Shown piece by piece: positions 5,270-30,271 of a stretch of DNA of 49,279 nucleotides. The notes below the pieces were generated by a model. It saw only the letters and a program-made list of their open reading frames with translations, made no database searches and had not been told where the DNA came from. Source of the DNA: a virus. The translations under genes were made by a program, and so were the position numbers. How positions within the stretch are numbered: the stretch's first letter is position 1; the number at the start of each line of letters is the position of its first letter. Where the stretch lies: positions 1-49,279 of the IMG/VR virus record IMGVR_UViG_3300027749_000163, one strand, 5' to 3'.

Positions 5270-5292
5270 TATATAATAAAAAGGAAATTATT

Positions 5293-6309: not shown

Positions 6310-6312
6310 CTA

Positions 6313-6711
6313 ATGAAATATATAAAATTATTTGAAGATTATGAGAATAAATTAACTAAAGAAATGATAATTAATTTATTCGTAAATGCATTAGAAGGAG
6401 GTTCTAATTATTGGTATTATTTAAAAGATATACCTAATGAAGTAAAAAACATAATGAGTAAGAAACATATAGCTACATCTGAGGCGATAGGAGAATTTAT
6501 ATTAAATGGTGGTGAAATACATATTTATGATATAGAAGATGAAGATGATTTATTAGGTAGTATAAATATGAATAATTTACTAGATGCTATAAATACGATG
6601 AAAAAAGAATATTCAGCAAATTACTTAAATATAGTTAGCGAAACTGATGATGCAGAGGATGCGGATATATTTTTACAAATAGCTACTATGGGAAAAATTG
6701 TATTTGGATAA
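6313..6711 (+). CDS. Passenger protein inside the split terL locus
   Basis: 132 residues beginning MKYIKLFEDY, the capsid-targeting-like peptide shared by many genes in the window. The body contains ALEGGSNYWYYL and SEAIGEFILNGGEIHIYDIE followed by an acidic segment. I have seen this type of small domain (xALEGGxNYW) in phage proteins, always without assigned function. It starts three bases after the endonuclease stop, so it is co-transcribed with it. Why a virion-type gene should lie between the two terminase halves is unclear; it may be ancestral neighbourhood trapped by a rearrangement or cargo carried along by homing. Confidence 0.75.
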   Translation: MKYIKLFEDYENKLTKEMIINLFVNALEGGSNYWYYLKDIPNEVKNIMSKKHIATSEAIGEFILNGGEIHIYDIEDEDDLLGSINMNNLLDAINTMKKEYSANYLNIVSETDDAEDADIFLQIATMGKIVFG

Positions 6712-6712
6712 T

Positions 6713-6751
6713 ATGAAATTATTTGAGGTATATAAAAAACATTTAAAATAA
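6713..6751 (+). CDS. 12-residue mini-ORF, possible remnant
   Basis: The reading frame MKLFEVYKKHLK begins one base after the previous stop, and its TAA overlaps the next ATG (TAATG). It reads like a decayed MKxIKLFExF peptide. It may be a remnant of a lost gene or may couple translation into the C-terminal terminase part. No function can be claimed. Confidence 0.3.
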   Translation: MKLFEVYKKHLK

Positions 6752-7179
6752 TGATAAAAAAAATAATATATTTCTTAATACAATTAATTGAGAAATACGA
6801 ATACAGGAATCTTTCATTAGATGAAGAAGATATAAATAAGAAGATACTAAATACAATATCTGGATTAAATATTAAGGTTAAAACTGATACTGGATATGAA
6901 AAAGCAACTGATATACATCTAACACAGCCTTACAAAGTATATGAAATTATACTAGATAATGGTTATCAATTAGAATGTGCTGATAATCATATTTTATTTG
7001 ATGAAAATTTTAATCAAATATTTTGTCAAGATTTAGCTATTAATTCTTATATACAAACTGATTTAGGTTTATCAAAAGTTATTAGAATAAATAAATCTAA
7101 ATGTAAGTTAAGTATGTTTGACTTAACAATTGATCATCCCAATCACAGATTTTATACAAATGGCATATTAAGTCATAAT
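6751..7179 (+). other. Split intein C-fragment
   Basis: 143 residues ending in His-Asn. Block B (DNGYQLECADNHILF, about 69-83) and blocks F/G (DHPNHRFYTNGILSHN) are both present. A leading ~30-residue charged helix may serve to associate with the N-fragment. Having block B on the C-fragment makes this an atypical split. Confidence 0.88.
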
Positions 7180-8964
7180 ACAATTAATGCAGCAATTTCA
7201 ATTTTGCATTTTATTACTTTTAATAATGATAAAAATGTAATGATTGTGGCGAATCTTAGAGATACTACTATTGAAATTGTAGATAAAATTAAATCTATTT
7301 ATGTAAATTTACCATTCTTTTTAAAGGTTGGTATTAAAGGTTGGAATCAAAAATCTATGGTTTGTGAAAATGGTTGTAAAATTAGAACAGCAGCGAGAAG
7401 TAAGACACCAGCGATTGGTTTCACAATTGACTTCTTATATTTGGATGAATTTGCGCACATTCCTTCTAATATTATAGAACCATATTATACCGCAGTATAT
7501 CCAATTGTTGCGGCTGTTAATAACTCCAAAATAATCATAACTTCAACACCAAAAGGAATGAATTTATTTTATAAATTATTAACTGATTCTGAAAGATCGG
7601 AATTAGATCCACTGAAAACAAATTTTAAATCTAAAAGAATATATTGGTATGAAGTAGAAGGAAGATTTGTAACATATTTTAGACTTTTTGAAAATAAATT
7701 ATTTGAACATGGTTTGACAAAAGAAGAAGTATTTGAACAAGTTAAAGCGGCATTTCCACAAACTAAAGTAGAAATGAATTATATAGCTGATTTAGAAAAA
7801 CATGTTGTTTATATTTATAATAAACATAATGGTGTTTTAGTTCCTTCTGAAGATGTTAAAAAGTTTATAGTTGAAAAAGATGGTAAACAAATCTTTATAC
7901 AACAATTAGCCTATGTTACAACGTGGCAAGAAGAAACTACCAAAGAAATTGGTGGTGAAGATGCATTTAATCAAGAATTCGCATTGAGATTTGTTGATGG
8001 TTCACGTTCATTATTAAACGAAGCGTTAATTGACGAATTATTGAAGAATAAAAAAGATTATGTTCATTATCCATCATACGAGTTTGATAGAAGATTGAAG
8101 TTTAATTATGAAGATTTACAATTTGTGGATGATACTAAAATTTTCTCACCATTAGATAGAAATAAAATTAAAGGTATATTCTCAATCGATATATCGGAAG
8201 GACTAGGACAAGATTACTCAGTTATTAACATGTTTAGAATTGCACCAAAACCAATGGAAATTATTGATATGTATAAAAAAGAATATAGGTATATATCGGA
8301 CTTTTTTTACTTACAACAATTTGGTATGTATAGATCTAATTTAGTATCTGTTAAGCAATTGGCTGAATTATTCTATGTATTAGCATTTGAATATTTTAAT
8401 CCTGAGAATTTTAAAGCTGTTATTGAATATAACACATATGGTATGCCATTTTTAGCAGAATTACCACATTTATTTGACGGTAATAATCAATATGGTTCAG
8501 GTATATTTTATAGATATAAACATAGAGTAGATTCGGAAGAAGAAAAAATTGGATTAAGAATAACTTCTACTAAAGAGATATTAGTAAAAGATTATCAAGA
8601 AAATATGAATAAAAGAAATTTTGATATAAACCACCCTACTAATATAAATGAAATTACTACATTTATCAAACATGTTTTACCTTCTGGTAATATAAGATAT
8701 GCCGCTGATACTGGCAATGATGATACTGTAATGAGTATAGTAAATGCATCTAGCGTTTTTTCTAAATTTATGTTTAGAGAAATGGTTGAATCAGCTGCTC
8801 CTGAATTAGTCGATTCGGCTACATTGAAATATTTTAATGATATACTAAAAAATCAAGAACAAGAAGATTATGGTAGTAACCATGATTATGACATATTAAC
8901 AAATGTAAATAAGCAAAGGAAATTCATGAATCAATATGGAATAAGAAATCGTAATAGTTGGTAA
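6751..8964 (+). CDS. terL (C-part): Large terminase C-terminal part with C-half of a split intein
   Basis: 737 residues. Residues 1-143 are the intein C-fragment, ending in FYTNGILSHN; Thr144 is the +1 extein residue. The C-extein has the rest of a gp17-type motor. Walker B FLYLDEFAH is at about 228-236 and the coupling motif TSTPKG at about 264-269. The RNase H-like nuclease acids are D480 (FSIDISEGLGQDYS), E559 (AVIEYNTYG) and D657/D658 (NDDTVMS). With the N-part the spliced protein would be about 716 residues, longer than T4 gp17 (610); a stretch around 300-400 looks like added sequence. The ATG at 6751 was chosen because the intein homology starts soon after it. Confidence 0.92.
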   Translation: MIKKIIYFLIQLIEKYEYRNLSLDEEDINKKILNTISGLNIKVKTDTGYEKATDIHLTQPYKVYEIILDNGYQLECADNHILFDENFNQIFCQDLAINSYIQTDLGLSKVIRINKSKCKLSMFDLTIDHPNHRFYTNGILSHNTINAAISILHFITFNNDKNVMIVANLRDTTIEIVDKIKSIYVNLPFFLKVGIKGWNQKSMVCENGCKIRTAARSKTPAIGFTIDFLYLDEFAHIPSNIIEPYYTAVYPIVAAVNNSKIIITSTPKGMNLFYKLLTDSERSELDPLKTNFKSKRIYWYEVEGRFVTYFRLFENKLFEHGLTKEEVFEQVKAAFPQTKVEMNYIADLEKHVVYIYNKHNGVLVPSEDVKKFIVEKDGKQIFIQQLAYVTTWQEETTKEIGGEDAFNQEFALRFVDGSRSLLNEALIDELLKNKKDYVHYPSYEFDRRLKFNYEDLQFVDDTKIFSPLDRNKIKGIFSIDISEGLGQDYSVINMFRIAPKPMEIIDMYKKEYRYISDFFYLQQFGMYRSNLVSVKQLAELFYVLAFEYFNPENFKAVIEYNTYGMPFLAELPHLFDGNNQYGSGIFYRYKHRVDSEEEKIGLRITSTKEILVKDYQENMNKRNFDINHPTNINEITTFIKHVLPSGNIRYAADTGNDDTVMSIVNASSVFSKFMFREMVESAAPELVDSATLKYFNDILKNQEQEDYGSNHDYDILTNVNKQRKFMNQYGIRNRNSW

Positions 8965-8967
8965 CTA

Positions 8968-9246
8968 TTACGATTCTTCCAATGTCACTGTTAATTCACA
9001 TGCAGATAATTTATTATAAATTATCTGCATTTTTTCTTTATCACCTCTTTTAACATCACATTTACCTTTAAAGTGTATTAAATAGGTACATTGCTCGGCT
9101 TGTTCTTTTTGATGTCCAGCATGTTTAATTAAACAATCAATAACATAATCGAAGCTATGTATATCATCGTTCCATACTATAATTACATATGGATAATTTA
9201 TTATCTCTTCCAATTCTGGACTTTCCAGCTCTTTAATTTTGCCCAT
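8968..9246 (-). CDS. clpS: ClpS-like adaptor for Clp protease
   Basis: 92 residues. ClpS delivers N-degron substrates to ClpAP/ClpCP in the cytoplasm. The signature is clear: YVIIVWNDDIHSFDYVI, then GHQKEQAEQCTYLIHFKGKC and a final CELTVTLEES. N26, D27 and H58 have the same spacing as the E. coli N-degron pocket residues N34, D35 and H66. The gatekeeper Met40 of E. coli is Phe32 here, which could change side-chain preference. It overlaps the upstream UVR-domain gene by 14 bases, so they form one operon. ClpS in a phage is unusual. Confidence 0.85.
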   Translation of the reverse strand: MGKIKELESPELEEIINYPYVIIVWNDDIHSFDYVIDCLIKHAGHQKEQAEQCTYLIHFKGKCDVKRGDKEKMQIIYNKLSACELTVTLEES

Positions 9247-9646
9247 CTAAATTTTTTATTTCCTCATTAATTAAGTTGGCTAATTCATAATTTTCATTAT
9301 GAATAGCTGCTTGCATTTCTTTTTTCAATTGTTCTTTAGATTTATTTTGGGTTTCTAAAGGTCCGCAATTTAATAAAATAAAATCTTTAAAAATTTCCGA
9401 TTTATAACTTTTAATAAAACTAACTTGATTATCATCTACCTTAGTATAAAACCATACTTTTTTTGATATAGGGTCATTATTATGAAGTGTAATTTTCATT
9501 ACTTGATCACAATATTTTTTGCCATTTATATTAACTGTATATCCTTCTGGTGGATAGATATTTATTATATCGTCTTTTCGAAGTAATTTTAATTCTTTAA
9601 TTTTTCTACTTTCGAAGAAACTGAATATTTTATATAACCATTTCAT
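9233..9646 (-). CDS. UVR-motif protein next to ClpS
   Basis: 137 residues. The N-terminal ~95 residues form an unrecognised, probably beta-rich domain. Residues ~103-135 are a UVR motif (LKKEMQAAIHNENYELANLI), the helical hairpin used by UvrB/UvrC and by Clp partners such as McsA and ClpC. With ClpS downstream, a role as a Clp-associated adaptor or modulator is more likely than DNA repair, but this is inferred from context. It is the middle gene of a three-gene minus-strand operon. Confidence 0.75.
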   Translation of the reverse strand: MKWLYKIFSFFESRKIKELKLLRKDDIINIYPPEGYTVNINGKKYCDQVMKITLHNNDPISKKVWFYTKVDDNQVSFIKSYKSEIFKDFILLNCGPLETQNKSKEQLKKEMQAAIHNENYELANLINEEIKNLDGQN

Positions 9647-11238: not shown

Positions 11239-11291
11239 TAAAAACCACTTTTTATTTATAATATATAATTTACAAAAAACAATTTTTGATA

Positions 11292-11798
11292 ATGAAACAC
11301 GTAAAAAAATTCGAAGGTTTTAAAAATAATAAACCTGAAGTTAAAATAGAAGATAAAGTAAACGAAACTGTATTCCAGGTTGAAAATACATATAGAGTCA
11401 ATGTTATTGTTGACATTGAGGACAAATTCTTATCAGCTTATGCTAAAAAAGTTAAACAAAACATGAATAAAGATATTCTTGATTTAATGGGTAAAGCAAT
11501 GTTAGCAGAAGAAATTGTAAAGTGGGTTATAAAAGATGGTTTAGATGTCGAAAAGATACCAGCAAGTGCTATTATAGGTGGCGCACAGGGTCAAGGGCAA
11601 GCACAAGGTCAACCAGCAGCACAAGAACCAGCAGCAGCACAAGGTCAACCAGCAGCACAAGGTCAACCAGCAGCACAAGGTCAACCAGCAGCACAAGGTC
11701 AACCAGCAGCACAAGGTCAACCAGGAATTCAAGTACAAACACAAACAACAGCACAACCAGCACAATCTCAAACTGGTGGTGAAGAATTACCAGTTTAA
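11292..11798 (+). CDS. Capsid-targeting-like protein with GQPAAQ repeats
   Basis: 168 residues from the ATG at 11292 (MKHVKKFEGF), preferred to an in-frame TTG six bases earlier because it restores the shared N-terminal peptide. Residues 15-95 form a charged mixed domain (FQVENTYRVNVIVDIEDKF). From about 97 to the end the chain is Gln/Pro/Ala/Gly only, including five near-perfect GQPAAQ hexapeptides. Probably a virion-internal or surface protein with a flexible tail; function unknown. A long terminator hairpin follows. Confidence 0.7.
   Translation: MKHVKKFEGFKNNKPEVKIEDKVNETVFQVENTYRVNVIVDIEDKFLSAYAKKVKQNMNKDILDLMGKAMLAEEIVKWVIKDGLDVEKIPASAIIGGAQGQGQAQGQPAAQEPAAAQGQPAAQGQPAAQGQPAAQGQPAAQGQPGIQVQTQTTAQPAQSQTGGEELPV
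11603..11724 (+). repeat. 18-base tandem repeats (GQPAAQ)
   Basis: The unit caaggtcaaccagcagca is repeated in register at 11640, 11658, 11676, 11694 and 11712, with degenerate copies upstream. It has no stop in any of the six frames, so spurious frames appear across it. Copy number is likely variable. Confidence 0.9.
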
Positions 11799-11801
11799 TT
11801 A

Positions 11802-11850
11802 TTAGTTAAATTAAAAAGCCGCTCAATGAGCGGCTTTTTAATTTAACTAA
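11802..11850. terminator. Long bidirectional terminator palindrome
   Basis: A 23-bp perfect stem with loop AAT and core GCCGCTC/GAGCGGC, flanked by A- and T-runs. It extends into the 3' end of the glutamine synthetase gene and includes its stop codon. Confidence 0.85.
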
Positions 11851-13003
11851 TACAATGTTGATCATTTATAAAAAATGAATAATCTTCTAATTGAACGATT
11901 GTATCACCAAGAATTGTTTGTACAATCCTATCTATAATTTCATATGGATCACCATTTGATGCTGGTCTGCGATCTTCTAAATAACCTGGTGTAGTAGAAT
12001 CTTCAATAGAAGAAGGAATACGAATAGAAGCTGTTCTATCACCTATACCGTATCTATATTCATTAATAGAACAAGTTTCATTAGCACCTGTTAAACGATG
12101 TTCATTATTAGAACCATAAACGGCAATATGCTCTTCAATTTTAGTAGCTAATTTCTCACAAGCTTCTATAACTAATTTCTTTTTATTAACTAAATCATCT
12201 CTCATAGTTTTTGTAGAGAAATTAACGTGCATACCAGACCCATTCCACTCATTTCCTTTATATGGCTTAGGATCTAATACAATATAATAATCATATTTTT
12301 CCGATAATCTTTCTAAGATATATCTCGAAACCCATAATTGATCTGAGCCTTCTTTGGCATAAACTGGTCCAATTTGATATTCCCATTGACCTAATGCTAC
12401 TTCAGCATTTATACCAGATATTTTTAAATCAGCATATTCGCACATTGAAGCATGTTCTTCGACAAATGCTCTACCTGATACATTTCTACCACCAACAGCA
12501 CAATAATAAGGTCCTTGAGGTCTAGAAGGATATGTAGTTATATCATAGTTATCTTTAGGCCACCCTAATGGTTTAGTTGTCTTTAAATCATATATAAAAT
12601 ATTCTTGTTCTAAACCATACATAGTATAATCATCATATTTATCTAATGTTTCAACCATTTTAGCTCTTTTATTTGTAATATGTGGTGTCATATCTGTATG
12701 GTATACTTCAGACACAACAATAAATCCATTTTGCTTAAATGGATCTTTAAATATATTAACTGGTTTAAGTAATAATTCGGAATTTTTTGTATCAGCTTGA
12801 TCAGTAGAAGAACCATCAAAATTCCACATAGGAAGTGTTTCAGGATTTTTTTTCCAATTATTAAATAATGTGACTAATGTTATAGCATTTTCATTAATTA
12901 CCGTAGATACTTGTTTTTCTATAATTTTAGTCTTAGAGCGTATTTGTTGTGGATACACCCCATCCAACCAAATATATTCCAAATGGATGTTTACTTTTTT
13001 CAT
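11843..13003 (-). CDS. glnA (GSII): Type II glutamine synthetase
   Basis: 386 residues. Catalyses ATP-dependent ligation of ammonia to glutamate. The sequence follows the eukaryote-like GSII family from end to end: beta-grasp start LEYIWLDG (8-15), WNFDGSSTDQA (60-70), metal-ligand GLEQEYF (E132, E134), GPYYCAVGG (164-172), GINAEVALGQWEYQIGP (E201, E208), WNGSGMHVNF (H259), the NEHRLTGANET loop and RTASIRIP. All catalytic residues I can check are present, so the enzyme should be active. GSII occurs in some Bacteroidota, a likely source. TATAAATA, the T4 late consensus, lies 21 bases before the ATG on the minus strand. Confidence 0.93.
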   Translation of the reverse strand: MKKVNIHLEYIWLDGVYPQQIRSKTKIIEKQVSTVINENAITLVTLFNNWKKNPETLPMWNFDGSSTDQADTKNSELLLKPVNIFKDPFKQNGFIVVSEVYHTDMTPHITNKRAKMVETLDKYDDYTMYGLEQEYFIYDLKTTKPLGWPKDNYDITTYPSRPQGPYYCAVGGRNVSGRAFVEEHASMCEYADLKISGINAEVALGQWEYQIGPVYAKEGSDQLWVSRYILERLSEKYDYYIVLDPKPYKGNEWNGSGMHVNFSTKTMRDDLVNKKKLVIEACEKLATKIEEHIAVYGSNNEHRLTGANETCSINEYRYGIGDRTASIRIPSSIEDSTTPGYLEDRRPASNGDPYEIIDRIVQTILGDTIVQLEDYSFFINDQHCIS

Positions 13004-13023: not shown

Positions 13024-13031
13024 TATTTATA
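13024..13031 (-). promoter_or_regulatory. Putative late promoter for glutamine synthetase
   Basis: Minus-strand TATAAATA inside ATATATAAATAAAA, 21 bases upstream of the ATG at 13003; identical to the T4 late promoter core. Confidence 0.4.
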
Positions 13032-13122
13032 TATTTGAAATAAAAAATGTTGTTTTTGGTGTAATAATCCTACACAACTAATGTAATTTTTTTACATACA
13101 ATATAAAAATAAAGGATAAATT

Positions 13123-13407
13123 ATGAAAACAATAAATGTTAGTGATGAATTACACACGAGATTAAAAAATGCTGCTGATTTTTGTGGTATATCTATACAA
13201 AGTTTAGTAACAGAAATGATAGAAAGAGACTTTAAAAATGCTACAAAAGTTAAAGAATTTGTTATAGAAGATATTAAAGATATAGAATTATATCGTGAAC
13301 AAATGGAAAATTATATTAAATTTAAAAAATTAAATGAAGATGAATTTAAGATAACAGTGATTACCGAGGTTTTGAAGAAACCTATCATAAAAATTTATCA
13401 TAAATAA
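13123..13407 (+). CDS. Ribbon-helix-helix DNA-binding protein
   Basis: 94 residues. The first ~45 (INVSDELHTRLKNAADFCGI then SIQSLVTEMIERDF) fit the Arc/CopG ribbon-helix-helix fold: one beta strand and two helices used as a dimer to read operator DNA. The C-terminal half is an acidic extension of unknown role. It is divergent from the glutamine synthetase gene across 119 bases, so it may regulate that promoter or itself; this is inference. Confidence 0.7.
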   Translation: MKTINVSDELHTRLKNAADFCGISIQSLVTEMIERDFKNATKVKEFVIEDIKDIELYREQMENYIKFKKLNEDEFKITVITEVLKKPIIKIYHK

Positions 13408-13437
13408 AAATTGTCCTATTTTATAGGGCAATTTTTT
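13406..13437. terminator. Bidirectional terminator
   Basis: Hairpin AAATTGTCCTAT/ATAGGGCAATTT with one G-U pair and loop TTT, flanked by A and T runs, between convergent genes. Confidence 0.75.
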
Positions 13438-14027
13438 GCTGAGTAAATATATTTATCATTTTTAAGTATTTTTAATCCGAGTGCTTTAGCTGCAATCATC
13501 ACATCTAATATACACTCATTTTCTGCACCACCAACTATTACAATTTCTTCTCCTTTTATAGATTTAAATATATTATATAATTTAATTGGACAGTGAAACC
13601 ACTTATGATTATTACCTATATAAACTATAATAGTCCCTTCTGTAGTTTCGAAGTATTCACCTCTTTGTATATTACCTTCTTTAGATTTTATAGTATTATA
13701 TGTATCTTCTGATAAAATTTTCTTATAATAATCTGCATTAACATTATAGTTATATCTTTTTTCGATTAAATCTATTTGGTTATTGAATCTATATAAATCA
13801 TCTTTATTTTCTATATCTGGTGTTTCATCATATAAGAAATCTTTATCAGGATTTTTTCCGTCATGGTGATTATCGAATATTTGATAAACTTTATCAAAAT
13901 CACTACAATAGGTATTTAGAGCTGCTAAATAATTTTTATTAAAAAACTTTTCAAAAGATTTTTGAACGTCAACTATAATAAGAATTCTATTCTTGGAAAA
14001 ATTTTCAAATAATTTAATATACCTCAT
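13416..14027 (-). CDS. Isochorismatase-like cysteine hydrolase with capsid-targeting-like N-terminus
   Basis: 203 residues. MRYIKLFENF is the shared N-terminal peptide; the enzyme domain starts directly after it (ILIIVDVQKSF, catalytic D20). The nucleophile region is GGAENECILDVMIAAKALGL with C172, as in nicotinamidase/isochorismatase-type hydrolases. A catalytic Lys is expected in the middle third, but I cannot place it firmly. If the N-terminal peptide targets the prohead, this would be an enzyme packaged in the head and delivered with the DNA. Substrate unknown; an NAD-related amide is one possibility. Confidence 0.72.
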   Translation of the reverse strand: MRYIKLFENFSKNRILIIVDVQKSFEKFFNKNYLAALNTYCSDFDKVYQIFDNHHDGKNPDKDFLYDETPDIENKDDLYRFNNQIDLIEKRYNYNVNADYYKKILSEDTYNTIKSKEGNIQRGEYFETTEGTIIVYIGNNHKWFHCPIKLYNIFKSIKGEEIVIVGGAENECILDVMIAAKALGLKILKNDKYIYSAKNCPIK

Positions 14028-14045
14028 TATCTATATATTAATAAA

Positions 14046-14074
14046 AAAATCCATTACTTTAAGTAATGGATTTT
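14046..14074 (-). terminator. Terminator at the end of the gp25-like gene
   Basis: AAAATCCATTACTT/AAGTAATGGATTTT hairpin followed on the minus strand by a T-run; it includes the last codons and stop of the gp25-like gene. Confidence 0.75.
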
Positions 14075-14442
14075 CCAAATTGAGCATATACTTCATAATC
14101 GGCTATTTGGAAATAAATATACATTATATCATAAAAATTATTTGGGTCTTTAGTGAAAGCTACCTTTAATGAATAATTCATATTATTTAATTCAGGTATA
14201 TACACCATTATTTGATTAATTAATTGTGTTTCTACATATTGATTTGAAACCGATGTTTCATTTAATAGTAATTCTAAATCACCACCAAAATTTGGATTAC
14301 CAAATAAATCACCTTTATTTGTAAATAAAATCATTTTATATTTTTGTAAAATAACTCTAATGATGTCATCTTCGATAACTTGATTAGCGGTAAATGAAGG
14401 ATCTGTTTTATCTATTATATAAAAATCGGTATAATTAAACAT
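14059..14442 (-). CDS. Baseplate wedge protein, gp25-like
   Basis: 127 residues, the usual size of T4 gp25. The family core is visible: a helix with VIEDDIIRVILQ, then the GNPNFGGDLELLLNE phrase (compare the P-x-F-G-x-x-L motif of gp25/GpW-type proteins), a second helix VETQLINQIMVYIPELN and strands that end in YIYFQIADY. In T4 gp25 sits at the inner baseplate where the sheath starts to assemble. It lies 10 bases downstream of the clamp-loader gene. Confidence 0.72.
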   Translation of the reverse strand: MFNYTDFYIIDKTDPSFTANQVIEDDIIRVILQKYKMILFTNKGDLFGNPNFGGDLELLLNETSVSNQYVETQLINQIMVYIPELNNMNYSLKVAFTKDPNNFYDIMYIYFQIADYEVYAQFGKSIT

Positions 14443-14452
14443 AAATTATATA

Positions 14453-15430
14453 TTAAATAAAAACTTCTCTTATTCTGGATAAGACAGTTATACCTAACAT
14501 AATTGGGTCAGTATTTGTTTCTAATAATCGAGTGTGATCTGTTACTACATTACATACTTTGAAAAGTTTTTCTGTATGTTTTGGCTGATTTGCTATAACA
14601 TAATCAACAAACGGTCTTCCTAATAAGGAAATCATTTCATCTACTTTATCAGCTCCAAAATTATCCATTATATGATGGTATATTTCATCAAATGTTTTCT
14701 GTTCACCTAATGCTATTTTAAATAGTTCATCTCTTTTTTTAATATCTATATTAGATGAAGCAGATATTTCACCATTTCTTCTGAAATGATCTAATGCAAT
14801 TAGAGTTTGTCTAAAATCTGGAAAGTTCTTATTTATTATTTTAGCTAAATCTTCTTTACTGATTTCAAATCCTTCTGCTGGTGCAATAACTTCTTGTATT
14901 CTTTTATAAAAGAGAGTTTTTAAGAATTTTTCTTCTCCGGCATCTTGACAATCAAAATTAATAGAAGATAATCTAGATGTTATACCTTTTGATACCTTAT
15001 CAATATGATTAGTTACTAAAATAAATCTAACATTTTTAGTAGAATAGTCCTCAATATATGCTTTTAATGCATCTTGGTATTGTTTTGATGTTCTTTCAAA
15101 TTCATCTAAAAACACATATTTCATTGAATCAGATTTAATATCTACCGACATATCTAATCCCATATATACCTTTGAACAAAAATCATCAATTTTAGTTCTT
15201 AAGTCGTCAATAGATGTATAATACGAAGAATTTAATTCTAATTTTGGTGCGTCTTTAGTATATCTACCAATTAATATTCTTGCTAAAGAAGTTTTTCCTG
15301 TTCCAAAATGTCCATATAAAATAACATTGTCGTTTAACCCATTTTCAAAAAATTTTTGAATTCTAGGAAGAAGTATAATATCCTCCATTGTCTTTGGTCT
15401 GTATTTATCTGCTAATAATAGTTGTTTCAT
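14453..15430 (-). CDS. Sliding-clamp loader large subunit, gp44-like
   Basis: 325 residues, close to T4 gp44 (319). It starts with the clamp-loader phrase LLADKYRPKTMEDI. Walker A is GHFGTGKTS (about 41-48), Walker B VFLDEFER (about 107-114) and the SRC-like segment ITSRLSSINFDC with sensor features follows. The C-terminal helical collar domain is present. It loads the polymerase clamp at primer-template junctions with ATP hydrolysis. Its small-subunit partner (gp62-like) is not seen in this window. Confidence 0.88.
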   Translation of the reverse strand: MKQLLLADKYRPKTMEDIILLPRIQKFFENGLNDNVILYGHFGTGKTSLARILIGRYTKDAPKLELNSSYYTSIDDLRTKIDDFCSKVYMGLDMSVDIKSDSMKYVFLDEFERTSKQYQDALKAYIEDYSTKNVRFILVTNHIDKVSKGITSRLSSINFDCQDAGEEKFLKTLFYKRIQEVIAPAEGFEISKEDLAKIINKNFPDFRQTLIALDHFRRNGEISASSNIDIKKRDELFKIALGEQKTFDEIYHHIMDNFGADKVDEMISLLGRPFVDYVIANQPKHTEKLFKVCNVVTDHTRLLETNTDPIMLGITVLSRIREVFI

Positions 15431-15507: not shown

Positions 15508-16329
15508 ATGATAGGCGATAGAAAAAATTATGATGATATATTTTTAAGAAATTTAACAATTGCTGTATTAGACACATTAGAAAATGAAGTTTATTGGAAT
15601 TATGAATTTACATCAGGTACAAGACAAGTTGTTGTTCCATTTTATTATTCTTTAACAGGTGATGAAAAATTCATTATTGATACATTTGTAGATGACGTTG
15701 TTTCTGATAATAGAAAAACCGAATTAAATACTGATCAAATACCAAGAGGAGTATTAACTATGACTGGATTTGATATATTAACAGATCAAATGGATAATCC
15801 TAATGTATGGATGAGAGTTAAATTTGAAGATACTGATGAAGTTAAAAATATAGCTGCTAGAGTAAGACCTTATCCTATATCTGTAAAATATGAATTGTCT
15901 ATATTTTTAAATTCCGAAAATGATTATTTTAAATGTGCAGAAGCATTAATGGATACAATTGGTATTTATAGGTATATGATGTTCGAGTATAATCAGTTTA
16001 ATATAAATGCTGTTATGCAATTACCAGAATCAAATCAATTTGAAAATACCCGTGAAAAAAGTTTATCTTCTAAAAACGAAATTAAATTAACAACTACATT
16101 TGATGTTTATACTTTTTATCCAGGTTATAGACGTCCAGCTAAAAAAGGTATTAGAGGAATAGATGGTCCAAATACTTGGTCTAATTCAAGTGATTATGAT
16201 TCATTTTCAGTTGACGAGCAAAATATTATTATACCAAAAAGAACAAAATGGTATTCCAGTATAGATAAATCTGCGGGGAATCAAGCTAATAGTGGTAACA
16301 TCGATAGCACAAACCCAGATACAATATAA
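15508..16329 (+). CDS. Tail completion/sheath-terminator protein, gp15-like
   Basis: 273 residues. The pattern matches T4 gp15 family members. A helix near the start has IFLRNLTIAVLDTL; strands then lead to a region with QIPRGVLTMTGFDIL, and RVRPYPISVKYELSIFLNSE is followed by a helix EALMDTIGIYRYMMF (in gp15: ..PYDIxFELyIyTxNxDD..qIxEQIL). The C-terminal ~60 residues are a polar tail. In T4 gp15 caps the tail tube and sheath and joins them to the neck. Assigned by motif order only, so moderate confidence. Confidence 0.55.
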   Translation: MIGDRKNYDDIFLRNLTIAVLDTLENEVYWNYEFTSGTRQVVVPFYYSLTGDEKFIIDTFVDDVVSDNRKTELNTDQIPRGVLTMTGFDILTDQMDNPNVWMRVKFEDTDEVKNIAARVRPYPISVKYELSIFLNSENDYFKCAEALMDTIGIYRYMMFEYNQFNINAVMQLPESNQFENTREKSLSSKNEIKLTTTFDVYTFYPGYRRPAKKGIRGIDGPNTWSNSSDYDSFSVDEQNIIIPKRTKWYSSIDKSAGNQANSGNIDSTNPDTI

Positions 16330-17183: not shown

Positions 17184-17193
17184 TATATATACT
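17184..17193 (+). promoter_or_regulatory. Putative late promoter
   Basis: TATATATACT, 31 bases before the ATG at 17215; the same ten bases precede the protease, major capsid and 30839 genes. Confidence 0.45.
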
Positions 17194-17214: not shown

Positions 17215-18495
17215 ATGAAGGATCTCAAATTAGAGCTTTTTAACTTTAAGAAAAACTTGTCTTATGAACAAAATGACATTTTTAATATCGTAGAAAGCCA
17301 TTTAAACGCTTGTAATGTGGCATCTGAGAAGCAAATTATATTATCTCTAAATGAGAAGCTTAAAACATATACTTATGATTCCGATGTTAAACAAATGTTG
17401 GAAACATTAAACAATGATATGAGTCAATATCAATTATTATATGAATTGAAAAACTTATATAATGTGTTAAACTCAAAAAACCAAGGCGAAATGTATAGAC
17501 AACCTATTAATGTTGTTCTACAAACGATTAATCTTGATTCAGACCAAGATAGAATGTCCAAAGTTCTTAATGAATTAGCTATCTATGATTGGGTTCCAGA
17601 AATTAAGTTGTTTGTTCATAATTTAACAAAATCACCAGAACAAAGAACTAATCTTTTATCAGGTGGTAAATCTGAATCAGTTTATACTATTGTTGATAGA
17701 GTTGAAGAAGGTTATATTTGTATGGTTAAAGATTCATGGTTCTTACTTTCTGAAAATAATATTGAAAAAACTTTATTAGAAACTCACGTTACTGATAATG
17801 AAAAATTAAAGGTTTTGAGAAACTTACAAACTGCTATGAATTACGCTAACGTTTCTGAAGATAGAATTAATTTTAGAATATCTGAAAATTTAACAATAGG
17901 TTTATCAGTTGCTAAAAAAGGCGTAATATACATCAATGATGATGAAATGAAGGAAACCACATTAGAATCTTTATTCTCATCTCCAATTATCCCAATCGTA
18001 AATAAAAACTTTTATCCAATTTTAATGGAAACAATGAATAATACCAATAAATTTGTTGAATTAGACGTTGTTAAAAGAGTTAATAACTTAATCAATCCTT
18101 ATTTAGAATGTTTCGCATTCAATTACAAAAATGCTACCTATTTATATAGATGTGACGAAAGATATGGTAATTCATTTTTCAAATATGAATCTGCTATTGA
18201 ATTAGTAAATGAGGTTAGAAATGAACTTAATTATGATTTAACTTTCTTCTATGAAAATAAATTAGACAAGGAAATGATAGTTAAGAGAAAATTAGAAGAT
18301 AAAGAAAGAGAAATTTCTATTAAATTAGAAGATTTAAATTTCAATATCACTAAATTAGAAGCATCAATTAAATATATTGGTGAATCAGAAGTTCTTTCAA
18401 CAGCTATGGAAAATCTTAATTCTAGAAAACAAGTATTAAATGATGAATTACAAGCAGTTAAAGAATTACAATACAAAGAAAGAGTAAAACTATAA
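17215..18495 (+). CDS. Conserved-type phage structural protein of unknown function
   Basis: 426 residues. Helical N-terminal third (about 1-110), a mixed middle domain with ENLTIGLSVAKKGVIYINDD, and a C-terminal coiled coil (about 345-426). No signal peptide or membrane segment. It has an exact copy of the putative late promoter, lies among virion-type genes and is followed by a terminator, which all suggest a late virion or assembly protein. I do not recognise a T4 counterpart. Confidence 0.65.
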   Translation: MKDLKLELFNFKKNLSYEQNDIFNIVESHLNACNVASEKQIILSLNEKLKTYTYDSDVKQMLETLNNDMSQYQLLYELKNLYNVLNSKNQGEMYRQPINVVLQTINLDSDQDRMSKVLNELAIYDWVPEIKLFVHNLTKSPEQRTNLLSGGKSESVYTIVDRVEEGYICMVKDSWFLLSENNIEKTLLETHVTDNEKLKVLRNLQTAMNYANVSEDRINFRISENLTIGLSVAKKGVIYINDDEMKETTLESLFSSPIIPIVNKNFYPILMETMNNTNKFVELDVVKRVNNLINPYLECFAFNYKNATYLYRCDERYGNSFFKYESAIELVNEVRNELNYDLTFFYENKLDKEMIVKRKLEDKEREISIKLEDLNFNITKLEASIKYIGESEVLSTAMENLNSRKQVLNDELQAVKELQYKERVKL

Positions 18496-20500: not shown

Positions 20501-20872
20501 ATGAATTATCTCCACAACAAAGACCTTTATGTAGAAATCGTAGTAAGTAAAGCACAGGGTAAATTAACAAAAAATGCCAAATTGATGCTAGAATTATTAG
20601 CGAAGAAAACAATTAAAAAAATGAGATACTGGTCTACTGATGATAAAATGGATTGCTATCAATCTGGTTTATTAGATATGTTTGATAACTGGTATAACTT
20701 TAATGAAGAAAAATCTGATGGAAATGCTTTTGCATACTTCACTGAAATTTTTAAGAGAGGATTAGCAAAAGGATTCAATCAACTTTATAAGAAAAAAGGT
20801 GATGCCGAACATAAGATAAAACTTATATCATTAGAAGGTTCTAATCAAGGACAAGGATTACACTCTATTTAA
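20501..20872 (+). CDS. Late-transcription sigma factor, gp55-like
   Basis: 123 residues. It starts NYLHNKDLYVEIVVSK, parallel to NYVNNKELLQAIIDWK of T4 gp55, and continues with the sigma-region-2 helices: KTIKKMRYWSTDDKMDCYQS, then GLLDMFDNWYNFNEEKSDGN and AFAYFTEIFKRGLAKGFNQL (compare [20 protein letters not shown] and HAYITQACFNAFVQR in T4). gp55 directs host RNA polymerase to -10-only late promoters together with gp33 and the clamp. It is shorter than T4 gp55 (185), missing most of the C-terminal tail. This fits the TATATA-type late elements in the window. Confidence 0.78.
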   Translation: MNYLHNKDLYVEIVVSKAQGKLTKNAKLMLELLAKKTIKKMRYWSTDDKMDCYQSGLLDMFDNWYNFNEEKSDGNAFAYFTEIFKRGLAKGFNQLYKKKGDAEHKIKLISLEGSNQGQGLHSI

Positions 20873-21180: not shown

Positions 21181-21207
21181 TTCACAAAAAAATTGTATCT
21201 TTACTTT

Positions 21208-21498
21208 ATGAAAAAAGTGTATTTACAATATTGGGAGGAGTCCGAAAGAGGTTGGGGCATTCGTCCTGATGGATGCTCGCTACACCTTACCGAAGAAGAC
21301 CGTAATAAATATATAACTTCTATATATGAGCAAAGAAAAAATGATAAGGAAGTTCCTTATGAATATGACCGACCTGTGGGTGAGTCAATAGAGGTTATGA
21401 TAAATGATAATCTTTTCGAGCTTATAAAGGAAAGTTATAGATTACTTTCTTTTGAATTAAATAATCTAATAAAATTAGAAGAAATAGTTATACTATGA
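21208..21498 (+). CDS. Hypothetical protein
   Basis: 96 residues from the ATG at 21208; an in-frame TTG at 21193 is less likely. Starts MKKVYLQYWEESERGWGIRP. Contains PYEYDRPVGESIEVMINDNL and a C-terminal helix. Looks like a small soluble alpha/beta protein of a kind common in Bacteroidota phages; function unknown. TATCTTTA, one mismatch from the -7 consensus, lies just upstream, but no good -33 box is found. Overlaps the next gene by four bases (ATGA). Confidence 0.65.
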   Translation: MKKVYLQYWEESERGWGIRPDGCSLHLTEEDRNKYITSIYEQRKNDKEVPYEYDRPVGESIEVMINDNLFELIKESYRLLSFELNNLIKLEEIVIL

Positions 21499-23492: not shown

Positions 23493-25238
23493 ATGGCAAG
23501 TTATAATCCAACAAATCAGGGCAATATGAATATTGCCGCCGCAGCTGGTGAAAATAAAGGAGTATTCAACAGATTACTTAGAAATTTAAGTAGTTTTGGT
23601 ATGAAATATGATGATATGATCGCTAGAAATACCGTAGGTATAGGTATGAATGAAGATCCTTTATCACAGAAAAATAATTCTATGTATGACTTTTTTAGCC
23701 AAAGAGCTGTAGCTCAGGTTTTAAACAAAAAGTCAATACCTTATTTAGATAAATCATATTCAGATAAAAGAAGAATATTAAGAGAATATTCTATTAAAGA
23801 TTTAATAAGAGATTACATCGCAATTGTATCGGATGAGTGTATCATATTCAATGGTCAAGACTTTTGTAGTCCAAAACCTTTGTCTAGTAATTACTCATCT
23901 GATATAAGAAATAAATATCAAGAATATTTTGAAAAGATATATAATAGATTTGGGTTCTCAGATGGCATCACAGCATGGAATATGATGCGAGATTTCTTAA
24001 TTGATGGTTTTGTAGCTATGGAAATTGTATGGGATGATAAAAAACAAAATATTATCGCATTTAATAGAATGCGTCCTGATACATTAGTTCCTTCATATGA
24101 GCCTACAATAGGTAATTTATGGATACAATATCCAGAAGATCCACAATTAAGAAGAATATTTCTAGATTCGCAATTAGTGTTTATATCTTATACTACTCAA
24201 AATGATTTTACAGAAACTTCTTATATAGAAGGTTTAATTAAACCTTATAATCAATTGAAGATAATCGAGCAAACAAGAATAATGTATAATATTATTAATG
24301 CTCAGATTTATCAAAAATTTACTATACCAACTAAAGGTTTATCAAGGCAAAAGGCTGAGGAACAAATCGGTCAGTTAATAGCTAATTATTCCGAACATAT
24401 TGAATGGGATGATTCTTTAGGTACATTAAGTATCAATGGTAGTAAACATTTACCTTACAATAAACAATTATGGTTTCCAGATGGTGATCAGGGAACACCA
24501 GCATTTGAATTAGTATCTCCAACTGGTAATGACTTAAATGAGGAAACAACTTTGAAATATTTTTCTAATGCATTAAAGAGAGCTTCTAAAATTCCATTCC
24601 CAAGATTTGAAATGGAAAGTGGTGGTGGTAGTATATTTACTATGGATTCAGCTGATGTGAGTCAGGAAGAACAACAATTTGCTAATTTTGTCGGAAGACA
24701 AAGAGCTAATTTTAAAGAAATAATAACTAAGCCTTTAAAATTACAAATGTGTATGGAATTTCCAGAATTAAAAGATGATGAAATATTTTTAAATCAAATT
24801 GATATAGTATTTAGTTCTAATCAAACTATCGAAGAATGGAAAAGAATCAAAACATATACAAAGAAAATAGAAGCGGCTACTAATATACTTGCTTTCCAAA
24901 AAGCAGACGGCACACCATATTTTCACGTTGATTTCATTGTTACTAATATATTAAAATTATCTCAACAAGAAATTGAAGAAAATAATGCCTTTTGGCTCAA
25001 AGCTAAAGCAGCTGGTGCAGCTCCTGGTGCACAAGGTGCAGCTCCTGGTGGAGAAATGGGTGGTGCTCCTGGTGGAGAAATGGGTGGACAAGTAGGTGGT
25101 CAAACACCACCAGCACAAGGTGGACAAGTAGGTGGTCAAACACCACCAGCACAAGGCGGACAAGCAGGAGCGCAGACTCCTCCACCACAGGGTGGGCAAG
25201 CAGGCGCACAAGGTGGGACAACTGAATTTGAATTTTAA
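23493..25238 (+). CDS. Portal protein, gp20-like
   Basis: 581 residues (T4 gp20 is 524). The phrase RRILREYSIKDLIRDYIAIV (about 90-109) and the core WNMMRDFLIDGFVAMEIVWD, then FNRMRPDTLVP, then EGLIKPYNQLKIIEQTRIMY are those of T4-type portals; the segment with MESGGGSIFTMDSADVSQEE follows. It forms the dodecameric head vertex through which the terminase pumps DNA. The last ~75 residues are an unusual low-complexity tail of GGQVGGQTPPAQ-type repeats, absent from T4. A short Ala-rich start (NIAAAAGENKG) is also unlike T4. Confidence 0.88.
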   Translation: MASYNPTNQGNMNIAAAAGENKGVFNRLLRNLSSFGMKYDDMIARNTVGIGMNEDPLSQKNNSMYDFFSQRAVAQVLNKKSIPYLDKSYSDKRRILREYSIKDLIRDYIAIVSDECIIFNGQDFCSPKPLSSNYSSDIRNKYQEYFEKIYNRFGFSDGITAWNMMRDFLIDGFVAMEIVWDDKKQNIIAFNRMRPDTLVPSYEPTIGNLWIQYPEDPQLRRIFLDSQLVFISYTTQNDFTETSYIEGLIKPYNQLKIIEQTRIMYNIINAQIYQKFTIPTKGLSRQKAEEQIGQLIANYSEHIEWDDSLGTLSINGSKHLPYNKQLWFPDGDQGTPAFELVSPTGNDLNEETTLKYFSNALKRASKIPFPRFEMESGGGSIFTMDSADVSQEEQQFANFVGRQRANFKEIITKPLKLQMCMEFPELKDDEIFLNQIDIVFSSNQTIEEWKRIKTYTKKIEAATNILAFQKADGTPYFHVDFIVTNILKLSQQEIEENNAFWLKAKAAGAAPGAQGAAPGGEMGGAPGGEMGGQVGGQTPPAQGGQVGGQTPPAQGGQAGAQTPPPQGGQAGAQGGTTEFEF

Positions 25239-26160: not shown

Positions 26161-28296
26161 ATGAAACCAGTAATGATTATTGAAAACAATAATAATCCAT
26201 TAAGTTTAAATGAGGAATTTGTTAGTTCTAATGGTAAGAAGTCTTATTTATTAGGTGGTACTTTCACTGAATTCGATATTAAAAATCGTAATGAAAGAAT
26301 ATATACTGCCCCAAGATTTCTACCATGCTTAGAAGAACTTAACTACAGAATAACTAACATGGGTGTTTATGGTGAATTTGACCATCCAGATGTATTTGAT
26401 ACTTCTTTACAAAGAGCTTCACACGTTGTGAAAGAAGCTATTTTTAATAAAGAGGCAAATAGAATTGAGGGTAAAATTCAATTATTATCAACATTTTGGG
26501 GAAAAGAAGCAAGAGCATTGGTTGAAGACCAGTGTCCTATTTTCGTTTCTTCTAGAGCAGCAGGTGTTACCGAGAATGACGGAACTGTAACTCTTAAAAA
26601 ATTATTCACTTATGACATCGTAGCTGACCCAGGTTTTGGTTCCGCTAAAATGAGTTCAATAAATGAATCTTTAAATTATTCAAATAACTCTAATTTCAGA
26701 ATCTATGAAATGAATGACGAGTCAAAAATTAATGATATTTTCAACATGAACAACAATGATTATGTTACAAAAGAACAAATCTCTGATTATTCTAACCATT
26801 TAATTGACGAGATAGCTAAAATTAAGAAATCTGTAAATGAAGCCGTTAAAAAGGGTAATATGGATCCTAAAAAGTTGGAAAAACTTCTTGAATACTACGA
26901 AGTATTAAACAGCACTAACTCTCAAATGGTTAAATATTTAGACTATTTAGCTGAAACTGTACAAGTAGTGGTTAATGAAAATAAAAATTTAAGAGAAACT
27001 TCTGAAAAATTAATTCAACATAATGACTACTTAACTGAAAATCTTGAAAAAGCTATCGGTTATAGTGAATATATTGCTGAAAAAGTTGATCAAAATATTG
27101 TTTATGTTGAACACATTGCTGAAAACTTAGATAAAACTATTGGTTATACAGAATATATTGCTGAAAACTTAGATAAAACTATTGCTTATGGTGAATATAT
27201 AGCTGAAAACTTAGATAAAACTATTGCCTATGGTGAGTATATCGCTGAAAACTTAGATAAATCTATCGCTTATGGTGAGTATATCGCTGAAAACTTAGAT
27301 AAATCTATCGCTTATGGTGAATATATCGCTGAAAGTGTAGATAATGCAATTGCCTATTCGGAATATTTAGCTGAACATGTTGAAGGCAACATTGCTTACT
27401 CTGAATACATTGCTGAACATTTAGATGAAAATATCGCTTATGGTGAATATATTGCTGAAAACTTAGATAAAGCTATTTCTTATGCTGGTTTAATTTCAGA
27501 AAAATTAAATGGTAATAAAATTAATGAAGATGCATCATCTTCTGCAATACCAACATTAGAAGAGTGGGGGTTTGAAAATGAAATAGAAGAACCAACTTCA
27601 TTCGAAACTGAAGAAGTATTGGAAGAAGAACCAACTGAAGAAGCACCAATATTTATTGATGCACCTTCAATTGAAGTTACTAACGAATTACCAACAGTTG
27701 ATGCTCCTATGGTTGACGTAACAAATGTTACTATCGAAACTACTGAAGCTGAACCAGCTATTCCTTCATTTACAGGTGAATCTGATTCTCAATTATCTTC
27801 ACAAATAGATAATTTAATTGCTGAGGCTAAAAAACGTAAAGCAGTTGAATCAAATGATTTACATTTCTTAAAGTTCTTAAATAAGTCACAAGTTGATAGC
27901 TACTATAGCTTAACAAATGAAGAACAAGAATCTGTTAAAATACATATTAACGGTAAATCTTACTTCAACAATGGTGACGTTTTAAAGCTAGTTCAAGAAG
28001 CATTATCAGTTAAATCTGAAACTATGGAAGAAAAAATTGTAAGATTAATTCCAGAATCAGTTAAACCTATGTGGGAAAATTTAAATGAATCTGCAAAGAA
28101 ATCAATTTTATCTCAAGCTAAATTAGGTTATGATTTAACAACTGAATCTTCAATTGAACATTTCTGGTATACTAGAAATTTAAAGAAAAATGAATCTACT
28201 AAGACTTTAGTAAACCATGATTCTTTAATCCAAGAAGATAAACTTTCAGATAAAGATGTTAATTCAATCTTAGAAAGAATTAAGAGTTTAAAATAA
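26161..28296 (+). CDS. Prohead protease (gp21-like) fused to a repetitive scaffold domain
   Basis: 711 residues. Residues ~20-165 are a gp21-type serine protease: GEFDHP with His75, VSSRAAG with Ser130/131, and YDIVADPGF with an Asp. T4 gp21 is only 212 residues and the scaffold gp22 is separate. Here the chain continues into ~540 residues that look like a scaffold core: a coiled coil, about eleven 14-residue repeats of the type YIAENLDKTIAYGE (about 289-444), an acidic Pro/Glu/Thr linker and a helical C-terminus. [LI]-N-E sites, the T4 cleavage type, occur at E18, E169 (right after the protease), E456 (right after the repeats) and near the C-terminus, so the fusion could cut itself into parts. 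Confidence 0.85.
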   Translation: MKPVMIIENNNNPLSLNEEFVSSNGKKSYLLGGTFTEFDIKNRNERIYTAPRFLPCLEELNYRITNMGVYGEFDHPDVFDTSLQRASHVVKEAIFNKEANRIEGKIQLLSTFWGKEARALVEDQCPIFVSSRAAGVTENDGTVTLKKLFTYDIVADPGFGSAKMSSINESLNYSNNSNFRIYEMNDESKINDIFNMNNNDYVTKEQISDYSNHLIDEIAKIKKSVNEAVKKGNMDPKKLEKLLEYYEVLNSTNSQMVKYLDYLAETVQVVVNENKNLRETSEKLIQHNDYLTENLEKAIGYSEYIAEKVDQNIVYVEHIAENLDKTIGYTEYIAENLDKTIAYGEYIAENLDKTIAYGEYIAENLDKSIAYGEYIAENLDKSIAYGEYIAESVDNAIAYSEYLAEHVEGNIAYSEYIAEHLDENIAYGEYIAENLDKAISYAGLISEKLNGNKINEDASSSAIPTLEEWGFENEIEEPTSFETEEVLEEEPTEEAPIFIDAPSIEVTNELPTVDAPMVDVTNVTIETTEAEPAIPSFTGESDSQLSSQIDNLIAEAKKRKAVESNDLHFLKFLNKSQVDSYYSLTNEEQESVKIHINGKSYFNNGDVLKLVQEALSVKSETMEEKIVRLIPESVKPMWENLNESAKKSILSQAKLGYDLTTESSIEHFWYTRNLKKNESTKTLVNHDSLIQEDKLSDKDVNSILERIKSLK
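27025..27490 (+). repeat. 42-base coding repeats (14-residue helical repeat)
   Basis: About eleven copies of a 42-base unit encoding [E]YIAENLDKTIAYG-like peptides. The three central copies are nearly identical in DNA and the outer ones diverged, as expected for growth by recombination in the middle. 14 residues equal two heptads of an amphipathic helix. Confidence 0.88.
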
Positions 28297-28477: not shown

Positions 28478-30271
28478 ATGAATCACATTCGTATAGACAA
28501 ACAAAAAGCTATTAACAAATGGGCTCCAGTATTGGAAAACATGGGCGTTATTGGCGAAGACAGAATCGATTGGATGGCGGAATATGCTGAATATCATGCA
28601 ATTAATGAAAACGCATATGCTAACGTATCAAACGTATCAGGCTTAGGTACAATTACCGCACCACAAGCATCATTATTACCAGGTACTACAATAGGTACTA
28701 ACTGGGGAACAAATACAGCAGGTTCTGGTAACGGCGGTACATTAGGTTCTGGTGACTTAGGACAAAACTTATTACCAGTTGCGATGAAAATTGCTGCTCA
28801 AACAATAGGTTTAGATTTAGTTGCTGTAAAGCCAACTCCAGGTCCTAAAATGGACTTACTTTATATTGATTTCCAATATGACGAAGGTAACATGGGTAGT
28901 TCAGATGAAAGACCAACAGTATTTAAACTAGATTTTACAAGTGTAACAAACACTTCTACTTTTACTGGTACAGTTTCTACTGCTTTATCTGCAGCTTCTA
29001 TTATTCAATCAGTAGGTGGCTTAACTAAATTAGATGGCACACCAGCAAGAATTTTCACTAAGATTAATAATAATCCAGGTACTTTCTCTAATAACTCTAA
29101 CTTATATTGGACTACAGTTGATCCAAATACTGCTGGTTTAAGCGTAGCTGGTATCGTAGAATTCTTAGGTTATTCTAGAATTGATGGTTATCCAATGTTC
29201 AGAGCGTACAAACAAGCAAATACTGCTCAAACATTAGCTTATCCTTATGTAGGATCAACTACATCTGCTAACACAGTATGGGGCTTTGATCCACAAAGAA
29301 ATACTTTCAGTGCAACATCATCAATGTTATCTCAAATATCTCAAGCATTTGGTGTTGCGTTTAGCGGAACATTAGTTATATCTTTAATCTCAGCTTTAGA
29401 AGATCATATTCCAGGTTATGTATCAAACTTTAATGGTGGTGGTAGATATCCAATGGATCGTGCTCAAGAAGAAAATATCTATGCGGGTCAAATTGGTCCA
29501 AAGATTTCTTCTAAATCAATCGCTGTTGGTACAATTGAAGTATCTTCTGCATTAAGAAGAACAGAAATTGAAGATATTAAAGCTAACACAGGTATGGACA
29601 TCGTTCAAAAAATGGAATCAATCCTTGTTAATGAATTATCTCAAACAATTTCTAAACAAATCGTTGGTAAAATCTTCGAAATGGGTGGTTTAAACAGACA
29701 ATCAGCTCCTCTTTATGTTGGTAATACTGCTTACAACTCTATTTCAAGTGCTACAATATTCGACTTAGATACTGCTTACGTTCAAGCTGGACCAGGTGGT
29801 GAAACTACACACGCTGTACAAAGAAAATTAATCACTAAAATGGTTCACGCTTCTAACTACATCGCAACAGAAGGTCGTGTAGGCCCTGCACAATTCGCAG
29901 TAACAAATGGTGCTCTTGCAGCTTCTTTAATGGATATAGCTGGTTACACAATTAACCCTCTTAAATCTAAATTAAATAGCTCTGGACAACTTTATCCAGT
30001 AGGACAAATTGGTGATATTCAAATATATGTTGATCCATATATGAAGTATAATGATAATAGAGTTGTTATTGGTAGAAAGAATAACCCAGACCAACCAGGT
30101 ATCATATTTGTACCTTACTTAATGGCACAATCAATCAGCATCATCTCTGAAGCAACATTTGCTCCAAGAATGCTTTTAAGAAGCCGTTATGCAGTAGCAG
30201 AAGTGGGTTGGTATCCACAAAAGCAATTTATGACTATCGTTGTAAATGACGCAGCTCAATACCTTAACTAA
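28478..30271 (+). CDS. Major capsid protein, gp23-like
   Basis: 597 residues (T4 gp23 is 521). The N-terminus parallels T4 gp23: a helix with INKWAPVLENMG (compare LLNKWKPLLEGEG), then a Gly/Thr/Ala-rich segment, then LLPVAMKIAAQTIGLDLVAV and PTPGPKMDLLYIDFQYD (T4: ..PTGQVFALRAVYG). The C-terminal half has RRTEIEDIKANTGMDIVQKM and VGPAQFAVTNGALAASLMDI, which are HK97-fold hallmarks of this family. I-N-E at 42-44 is a probable maturation site, comparable to T4 cleavage after E65. More GC-rich at wobble positions than neighbouring genes, as expected for high expression. Confidence 0.92.
   Translation: MNHIRIDKQKAINKWAPVLENMGVIGEDRIDWMAEYAEYHAINENAYANVSNVSGLGTITAPQASLLPGTTIGTNWGTNTAGSGNGGTLGSGDLGQNLLPVAMKIAAQTIGLDLVAVKPTPGPKMDLLYIDFQYDEGNMGSSDERPTVFKLDFTSVTNTSTFTGTVSTALSAASIIQSVGGLTKLDGTPARIFTKINNNPGTFSNNSNLYWTTVDPNTAGLSVAGIVEFLGYSRIDGYPMFRAYKQANTAQTLAYPYVGSTTSANTVWGFDPQRNTFSATSSMLSQISQAFGVAFSGTLVISLISALEDHIPGYVSNFNGGGRYPMDRAQEENIYAGQIGPKISSKSIAVGTIEVSSALRRTEIEDIKANTGMDIVQKMESILVNELSQTISKQIVGKIFEMGGLNRQSAPLYVGNTAYNSISSATIFDLDTAYVQAGPGGETTHAVQRKLITKMVHASNYIATEGRVGPAQFAVTNGALAASLMDIAGYTINPLKSKLNSSGQLYPVGQIGDIQIYVDPYMKYNDNRVVIGRKNNPDQPGIIFVPYLMAQSISIISEATFAPRMLLRSRYAVAEVGWYPQKQFMTIVVNDAAQYLN

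Follow-up and report, generated by a model that had tools for sequence, protein, structure and literature searches.

A window of viral DNA, by which we mean the whole stretch of 49,279 nucleotides that was analysed, carries on its minus strand (11843-13003) a gene for a type II glutamine synthetase (GSII) whose catalytic residues are complete. In our view this gene quite likely encodes a working, ATP-dependent GSII, which would feed glutamine into the infection. As an accessory metabolic cassette, it would be a long-standing possession of a lineage of large T4-like phages whose relatives include huge phages of 635 and 642 kb. The class assignment draws on profile and PDB matches, predicted structure, alignment and dN/dS.

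The open reading frame runs from an ATG start to a TAA stop and specifies 386 residues. Its product matches the NCBIfam model GlnII with 350 bits (1.3e-104) and is nearer to it than to the remaining glutamine synthetase (GS) models, which score lower (type I, 55 bits; TIGR03105, 29 bits). The GlnII cut-off lies at 500 bits, and cellular GSII of Bacteroidota, Balneolota and archaea (369-402 bits) also stay below it, so that the cut-off misses this branch and should be read as a naming threshold, not as a defining feature. GSII chains of eukaryotic, plant and Streptomyces origin in the PDB match the protein as well, down to 2.3e-83. An AlphaFold2 model, for which a 49-row alignment of the window and locus proteins served as input, reached a mean pLDDT of 86.8 and a pTM of 0.89; Foldseek matched it to the GSII of S. 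coelicolor at 2.1e-38, and the target TM-score was 0.90 both for this enzyme (4BAX) and for the maize GS (2D3A). As modelled, the protein fits the GSII layout, a single chain of about 330-390 amino acids with a beta-grasp and a catalytic domain.

Fifteen active-site positions (D63, S66, E132, E134, E201, E208, N254, G255, H259, R303, E309, R323, R328, E343, R345), picked from established GSII structures, were checked; they cover the metal, glutamate, ATP and ammonium sites. All 15 are the same in every aligned viral and cellular sequence, the alignment comprising the window protein and 45 viral, 30 Bacteroidota/Balneolota/archaeal, three alphaproteobacterial and three PDB-derived sequences. 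Selection on the gene was estimated from 12 GS pairs: in the eight with dS of 0.69-0.92, dN/dS (NG86) is 0.09-0.16, the rest having a dS above 1 or undefined, and a comparison of the window gene with relatives of 73-84% protein identity gives 0.14-0.17. Such low ratios indicate that the gene is maintained by selection. The initial annotation had described the gene as complete, with all GSII motifs intact, and as apparently used, not decaying; that it is complete and shows no decay is supported.

Alignment and secondary structure prediction place a phage-clade insertion at residues 31-57 (12833..12913, minus strand), with a predicted helix at 43-52, before the DGSS motif; the spacing from K26 to W60 amounts to 33 residues in the window protein versus 14-16 in Bacteroidota, and the region, about 20 residues extra, is short or absent in cellular GSII. 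It could be argued from this clade-specific addition, and from the position of GS genes beside late sigma or virion genes, that the protein is kept as a scaffold, a regulator or a counter-defence factor and not as an enzyme. We regard this as very unlikely, as a purely structural role would need none of the catalytic, ATP and ammonium positions that are kept in 46 viral sequences; a role in a defence system was likewise considered and dropped, as the PADLOC models give no match to GS.

That the gene belongs to a phage, as initially annotated, is confirmed by its surroundings, since T4-like virion genes stand around it in dozens of contigs. To its left lies a conserved phage protein with GQPAAQ repeats (11286..11798, plus strand), which forms the left border of the cassette; its GQPAAQ run is C-terminal, and sequence and length of the tract vary in relatives such as L246. 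Between the two converging genes, a perfect inverted repeat with 26-nt arms and a 1-nt loop (11800..11852) likely acts as a bidirectional terminator, judged from its sequence. The right border is a conserved phage protein of unassigned function (13416..14027, minus strand), which has no family match; an isochorismatase-like identity, guessed by eye, was supported neither by HMM nor by PDB search. Beyond it follow a gp25-like baseplate wedge protein (14059..14442) and a gp44-like sliding clamp loader (14453..15430), both on the minus strand, and then, on the plus strand, a weakly matching gp15-like tail sheath stabiliser (15508..16329), the conserved phage protein ORF25, a backbone marker which served us as anchor (17215..18495), a gp55-like late sigma factor (20501..20872), the conserved small protein ORF32 (21193..21498), a gp20-like portal protein (23493..25238), a gp21-like head maturation protease (26161..28296) and a gp23-like major capsid protein (28478..30271). 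Head closure and terminase proteins are further encoded in the flanks. This morphogenesis block is common to dozens of IMG/VR contigs, and two huge phage genomes, LR756502 (642 kb) and LR745206 (635 kb), share both the block and a GS.

Two observations on the terminase region may be added. A ClpS-like adaptor (8968-9246; PF02617, 4.5e-16) adjoins the terminase and is conserved in the lineage. The TerL gene itself is split around an intein (4733-8964): 4733-5269 encodes the N-terminal part of TerL together with what resembles the start of an intein (CATGQSG...), two open reading frames stand free behind it (5293-6309 and 6313-6711), and the C-terminal intein part (...NGILSHN) with the remaining TerL occupies 6751-8964. 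From its sequence this looks like a split-intein 'fractured gene'; TerL is intact and intein-free in L003 and L004, and in L039 an in-frame insert of about 340 amino acids sits at the same point.

Where did the enzyme come from? A recent capture from a Bacteroidota host, or the assembly of a host contig into the record, might be expected, as about 20% of the Bacteroidota genomes sampled have a GSII (29/148; 58/296) and the huge-phage relatives have predicted Bacteroidota hosts (PMC7162821). The trees and identities point elsewhere. The best cellular identity to the window protein is at most 56% (HMMER), or 53% over the whole alignment, versus 83% among viral relatives. A tree of 93 rows puts the window protein into a long-stemmed viral clade of 20 rows (support 100/100), and 44 cellular sequences, those of Bacteroidota among them, form one clade (100/99); when the tree was enlarged with more archaeal rows as well as Alphaproteobacteria and Actinomycetota, the Bacteroidota and archaeal clade stayed intact (97/94) and the phages still stood outside. 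The flanking phage core genes recur in dozens of contigs, and a separate IMG/VR contig (L002) carries a GS copy that is 99.7% identical. The phylogeny against Bacteroidota GSII, which the initial annotation had named as the check on host contamination, speaks for a genuine phage gene, and recent capture or contamination, which we hold to be extremely improbable, is rejected as far as the cells sampled are concerned. It can safely be said that none of the cellular GSII clades in these trees appears to be the source of the gene, the cellular sampling being limited, with Planctomycetota and other phyla left out. Multiple viral origins, suggested by the best tree, in which viral rows are scattered around the cells, were not adopted, as the data remain compatible with a single viral clade (p-AU 0.32); they are also compatible with a grouping of the window clade with the two huge phages, L163/L164 (p-AU 0.42).

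The behaviour of the gene within the phage lineage was followed in 80 loci, gathered with the ORF25 protein as anchor. Three positions in the morphogenesis block are used: site A, which is bordered by the gp55-like sigma gene and ORF32 and holds no GS in the window; site B, between ORF36 and the portal gene, occupied in a few loci; and site C, between the repeat protein and the gene at 13416-14027, where GS is found in the subclade of the window. Both borders of site A are present in 73 loci. About half of these comparable loci carry a GS (36 of the 73), mostly inside site A; among the 37 others, the borders of site A lie just 130-180 bp apart in 22. A clean empty site C is seen in L246 (87% anchor identity with the window): here the stop codon is followed by the terminator hairpin and directly by the next gene, and both GS and the ribbon-helix-helix (RHH) gene described below are missing. 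There are contigs of 150-180 kb that have no GS at all and, as many close relatives lack it too, the gene is dispensable. On the anchor tree the presence of GS changes 11 times, which is an upper bound because some of the loci lacking the gene miss part of the three sites. Two deep GS types occur at site A, and as the anchor tree requires only three type changes, versus a mean of 11 after shuffling, inheritance has been mostly vertical, with some swaps. GS behaves as a cassette, with several losses and several moves inside the block of virion genes. Two neighbourhoods outside the window should be mentioned. At site A of L017 a class III nucleotidyl cyclase gene (8938-9606; PF00211, 7.6e-20) adjoins GS, with homologues in L024, L027 and L030. 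In a different phage group (L041-L055), GS lies near genes that by eye are CysK-like, sugar nucleotidyltransferase-like and peptidyl-prolyl isomerase-like, a setting which, judged from sequence, may be a separate metabolic island.

Such patchiness over three positions, together with homing endonuclease-like and HNH genes that recur at the same gaps, could mean that GS is a mere passenger, moved by homing endonucleases and of no benefit to the phage. We find this highly improbable, as the dN/dS of 0.09-0.16 at a dS of 0.69-0.92 speaks of continued selection on the protein.

As to transcription, the initial annotation had credited the gene with a T4-consensus late element, and this part of it does not stand. 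The motif TATAAATA is present 20 nt upstream of GS (13024..13031, minus strand), at chance level and unconserved: the window has 33 copies versus 24.9 expected, conserved genes show no enrichment upstream (17 versus 16.2 expected), the three nearest relatives have TATAAAA at this position, and only 4 of 41 GS genes are preceded by the motif. It was therefore rejected as a late promoter. The motif which is enriched upstream is ATATATAC (55 versus 2.1 expected); TATATAC, the lineage's own motif ahead of virion genes, stands before 16/18 protease genes, 19/35 portal genes and 23/35 anchor genes, and was found before none of the 41 GS genes. GS therefore probably stands outside the promoter class of the capsid and portal late genes, as far as motif counts can tell. 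In the window, TATATATACT occurs five times (0.94 expected), among others at 17184, 26131, 28443 and 30807, at a distance of 20-25 nt upstream of the start codons of the anchor, protease and capsid genes and of the open reading frame 30839-31546; it is probably the late promoter of the lineage and would vary the T4 late consensus. The window also encodes a gp55-like sigma factor.

Divergently from GS, and beside it only in the subclade of the window, not in the wider lineage, runs the gene of a 94-residue RHH (Arc-like) protein (13123..13407, plus strand; phrog_582, 2.2e-4). A CARF2 match of the same protein (2.2e-4) is weak and probably due to chance. The region between the two genes contains two operator-like palindromic boxes, TGTA-N7-TACA (13060..13074) and TGTAA-N5-TTACA (13082..13096). 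The latter, stricter pattern is found twice in the window versus 0.15 expected, one copy being that between GS and the RHH gene, and its TGTA and TACA ends are kept in four of four relatives; an inverted repeat of 15-16 bp is made by the pair of boxes in L003 and L039. These palindromes would suit an RHH operator and lie nearest to the start of the RHH gene itself, and control of GS by the RHH protein is plausible. In the window subclade the protein may repress its own gene, and possibly GS too, through the palindromes. Taken further, the enzyme could be an old phage-resident GSII, of which at least two deep types were inherited and swapped at the late-sigma locus independently of present cellular GSII, in a lineage to which some of the largest known phages belong; in the window subclade it would have become one half of a regulated pair of genes that brings its own repressor. 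We give this fuller history even chances.

Raised glutamine during infection is the most likely role of the enzyme. Phage GS would make glutamine from glutamate and ammonium, it might escape the control exerted on the host's own enzyme, and host amidotransferases could thereby go on producing the amino acids, purines and pyrimidines that a large genome demands. Amidotransferases of the phages' own are few: a class I domain was found in 4 of 19 large phage records and GATase_6 in none of the 19. Most of the glutamine would accordingly go to enzymes of the host, and phage amidotransferases were discarded as the main glutamine sink. The same scarcity could be read differently. Any active glutamine synthetase shifts the pools of glutamate, 2-oxoglutarate and glutamine, and the phage enzyme might thus mainly disturb host nitrogen control, lowering ammonium or glutamate and raising the glutamine signal, with nucleotide supply being secondary. 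We judge this possible but rather unlikely, no nitrogen regulator being recognised among the annotated neighbours of GS, and prefer glutamine supply. Such supply would then appear as a recurrent, selected need in large phages related to those with predicted Bacteroidota hosts, and the natural pairs of genomes that have the same site with and without the cassette allow the value of GS to be tested. The deep branching further suggests that some metabolic genes of phages are a long-term property of the phages and not recent loans from hosts.

Nor is phage GS as rare as initially stated: one scan of IMG/VR returned 166 viral relatives, although a collection of annotated phages has GS in only 4 of 50,697 records, all from uncultured huge phages. 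The gene is under-annotated, not rare. Phage glutamine synthetase is already known, including that of Bacteroidota jumbo phages; a 2026 paper counts glnA among the auxiliary genes of jumbo phages (PMC13037316). The Mahaphage clade comprises complete huge phages of 634, 636, 642 and 735 kb with predicted Bacteroidetes hosts, and the main text of the respective paper (PMC7162821) does not mention glutamine. What is new here is that a phage GS is shown to be of type II, to be old in its phage lineage and to move between three sites; the literature searched holds no earlier report of the class, placement and cassette behaviour found here.

Among known systems, the GS of moraphages resembles that of the window in setting: the available part of their description gives them as aquatic jumbo phages with predicted Bacteroidota hosts and a patchy distribution of the gene, 9 of 25 genomes having it, but in that part leaves class (I, II or III), tree, position and neighbours unstated (Perez-Hernandez et al. 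2025, PMC12619734). PHROG 21628, a profile of 480 positions, likewise represents a phage-encoded member of the glutamine synthetase superfamily, but matches the window protein weakly, with 69 bits versus the 350 of GlnII. Cellular GSII (Bacteroidota, S. coelicolor 4BAX, eukaryotes) shares with it the fold and every active-site residue checked; the window protein differs from the Bacteroidota type by an identity of 50-53% over the whole alignment, by its helix insertion of about 20 residues and by its separate clade. A further case is the GSII of the huge phages LR745206 and LR756502, which belong to the same lineage by their morphogenesis block, but whose gene sits between the gp55-like sigma factor and ORF32 and encodes a second GS type, 43-45% identical to the window protein and without the insertion.
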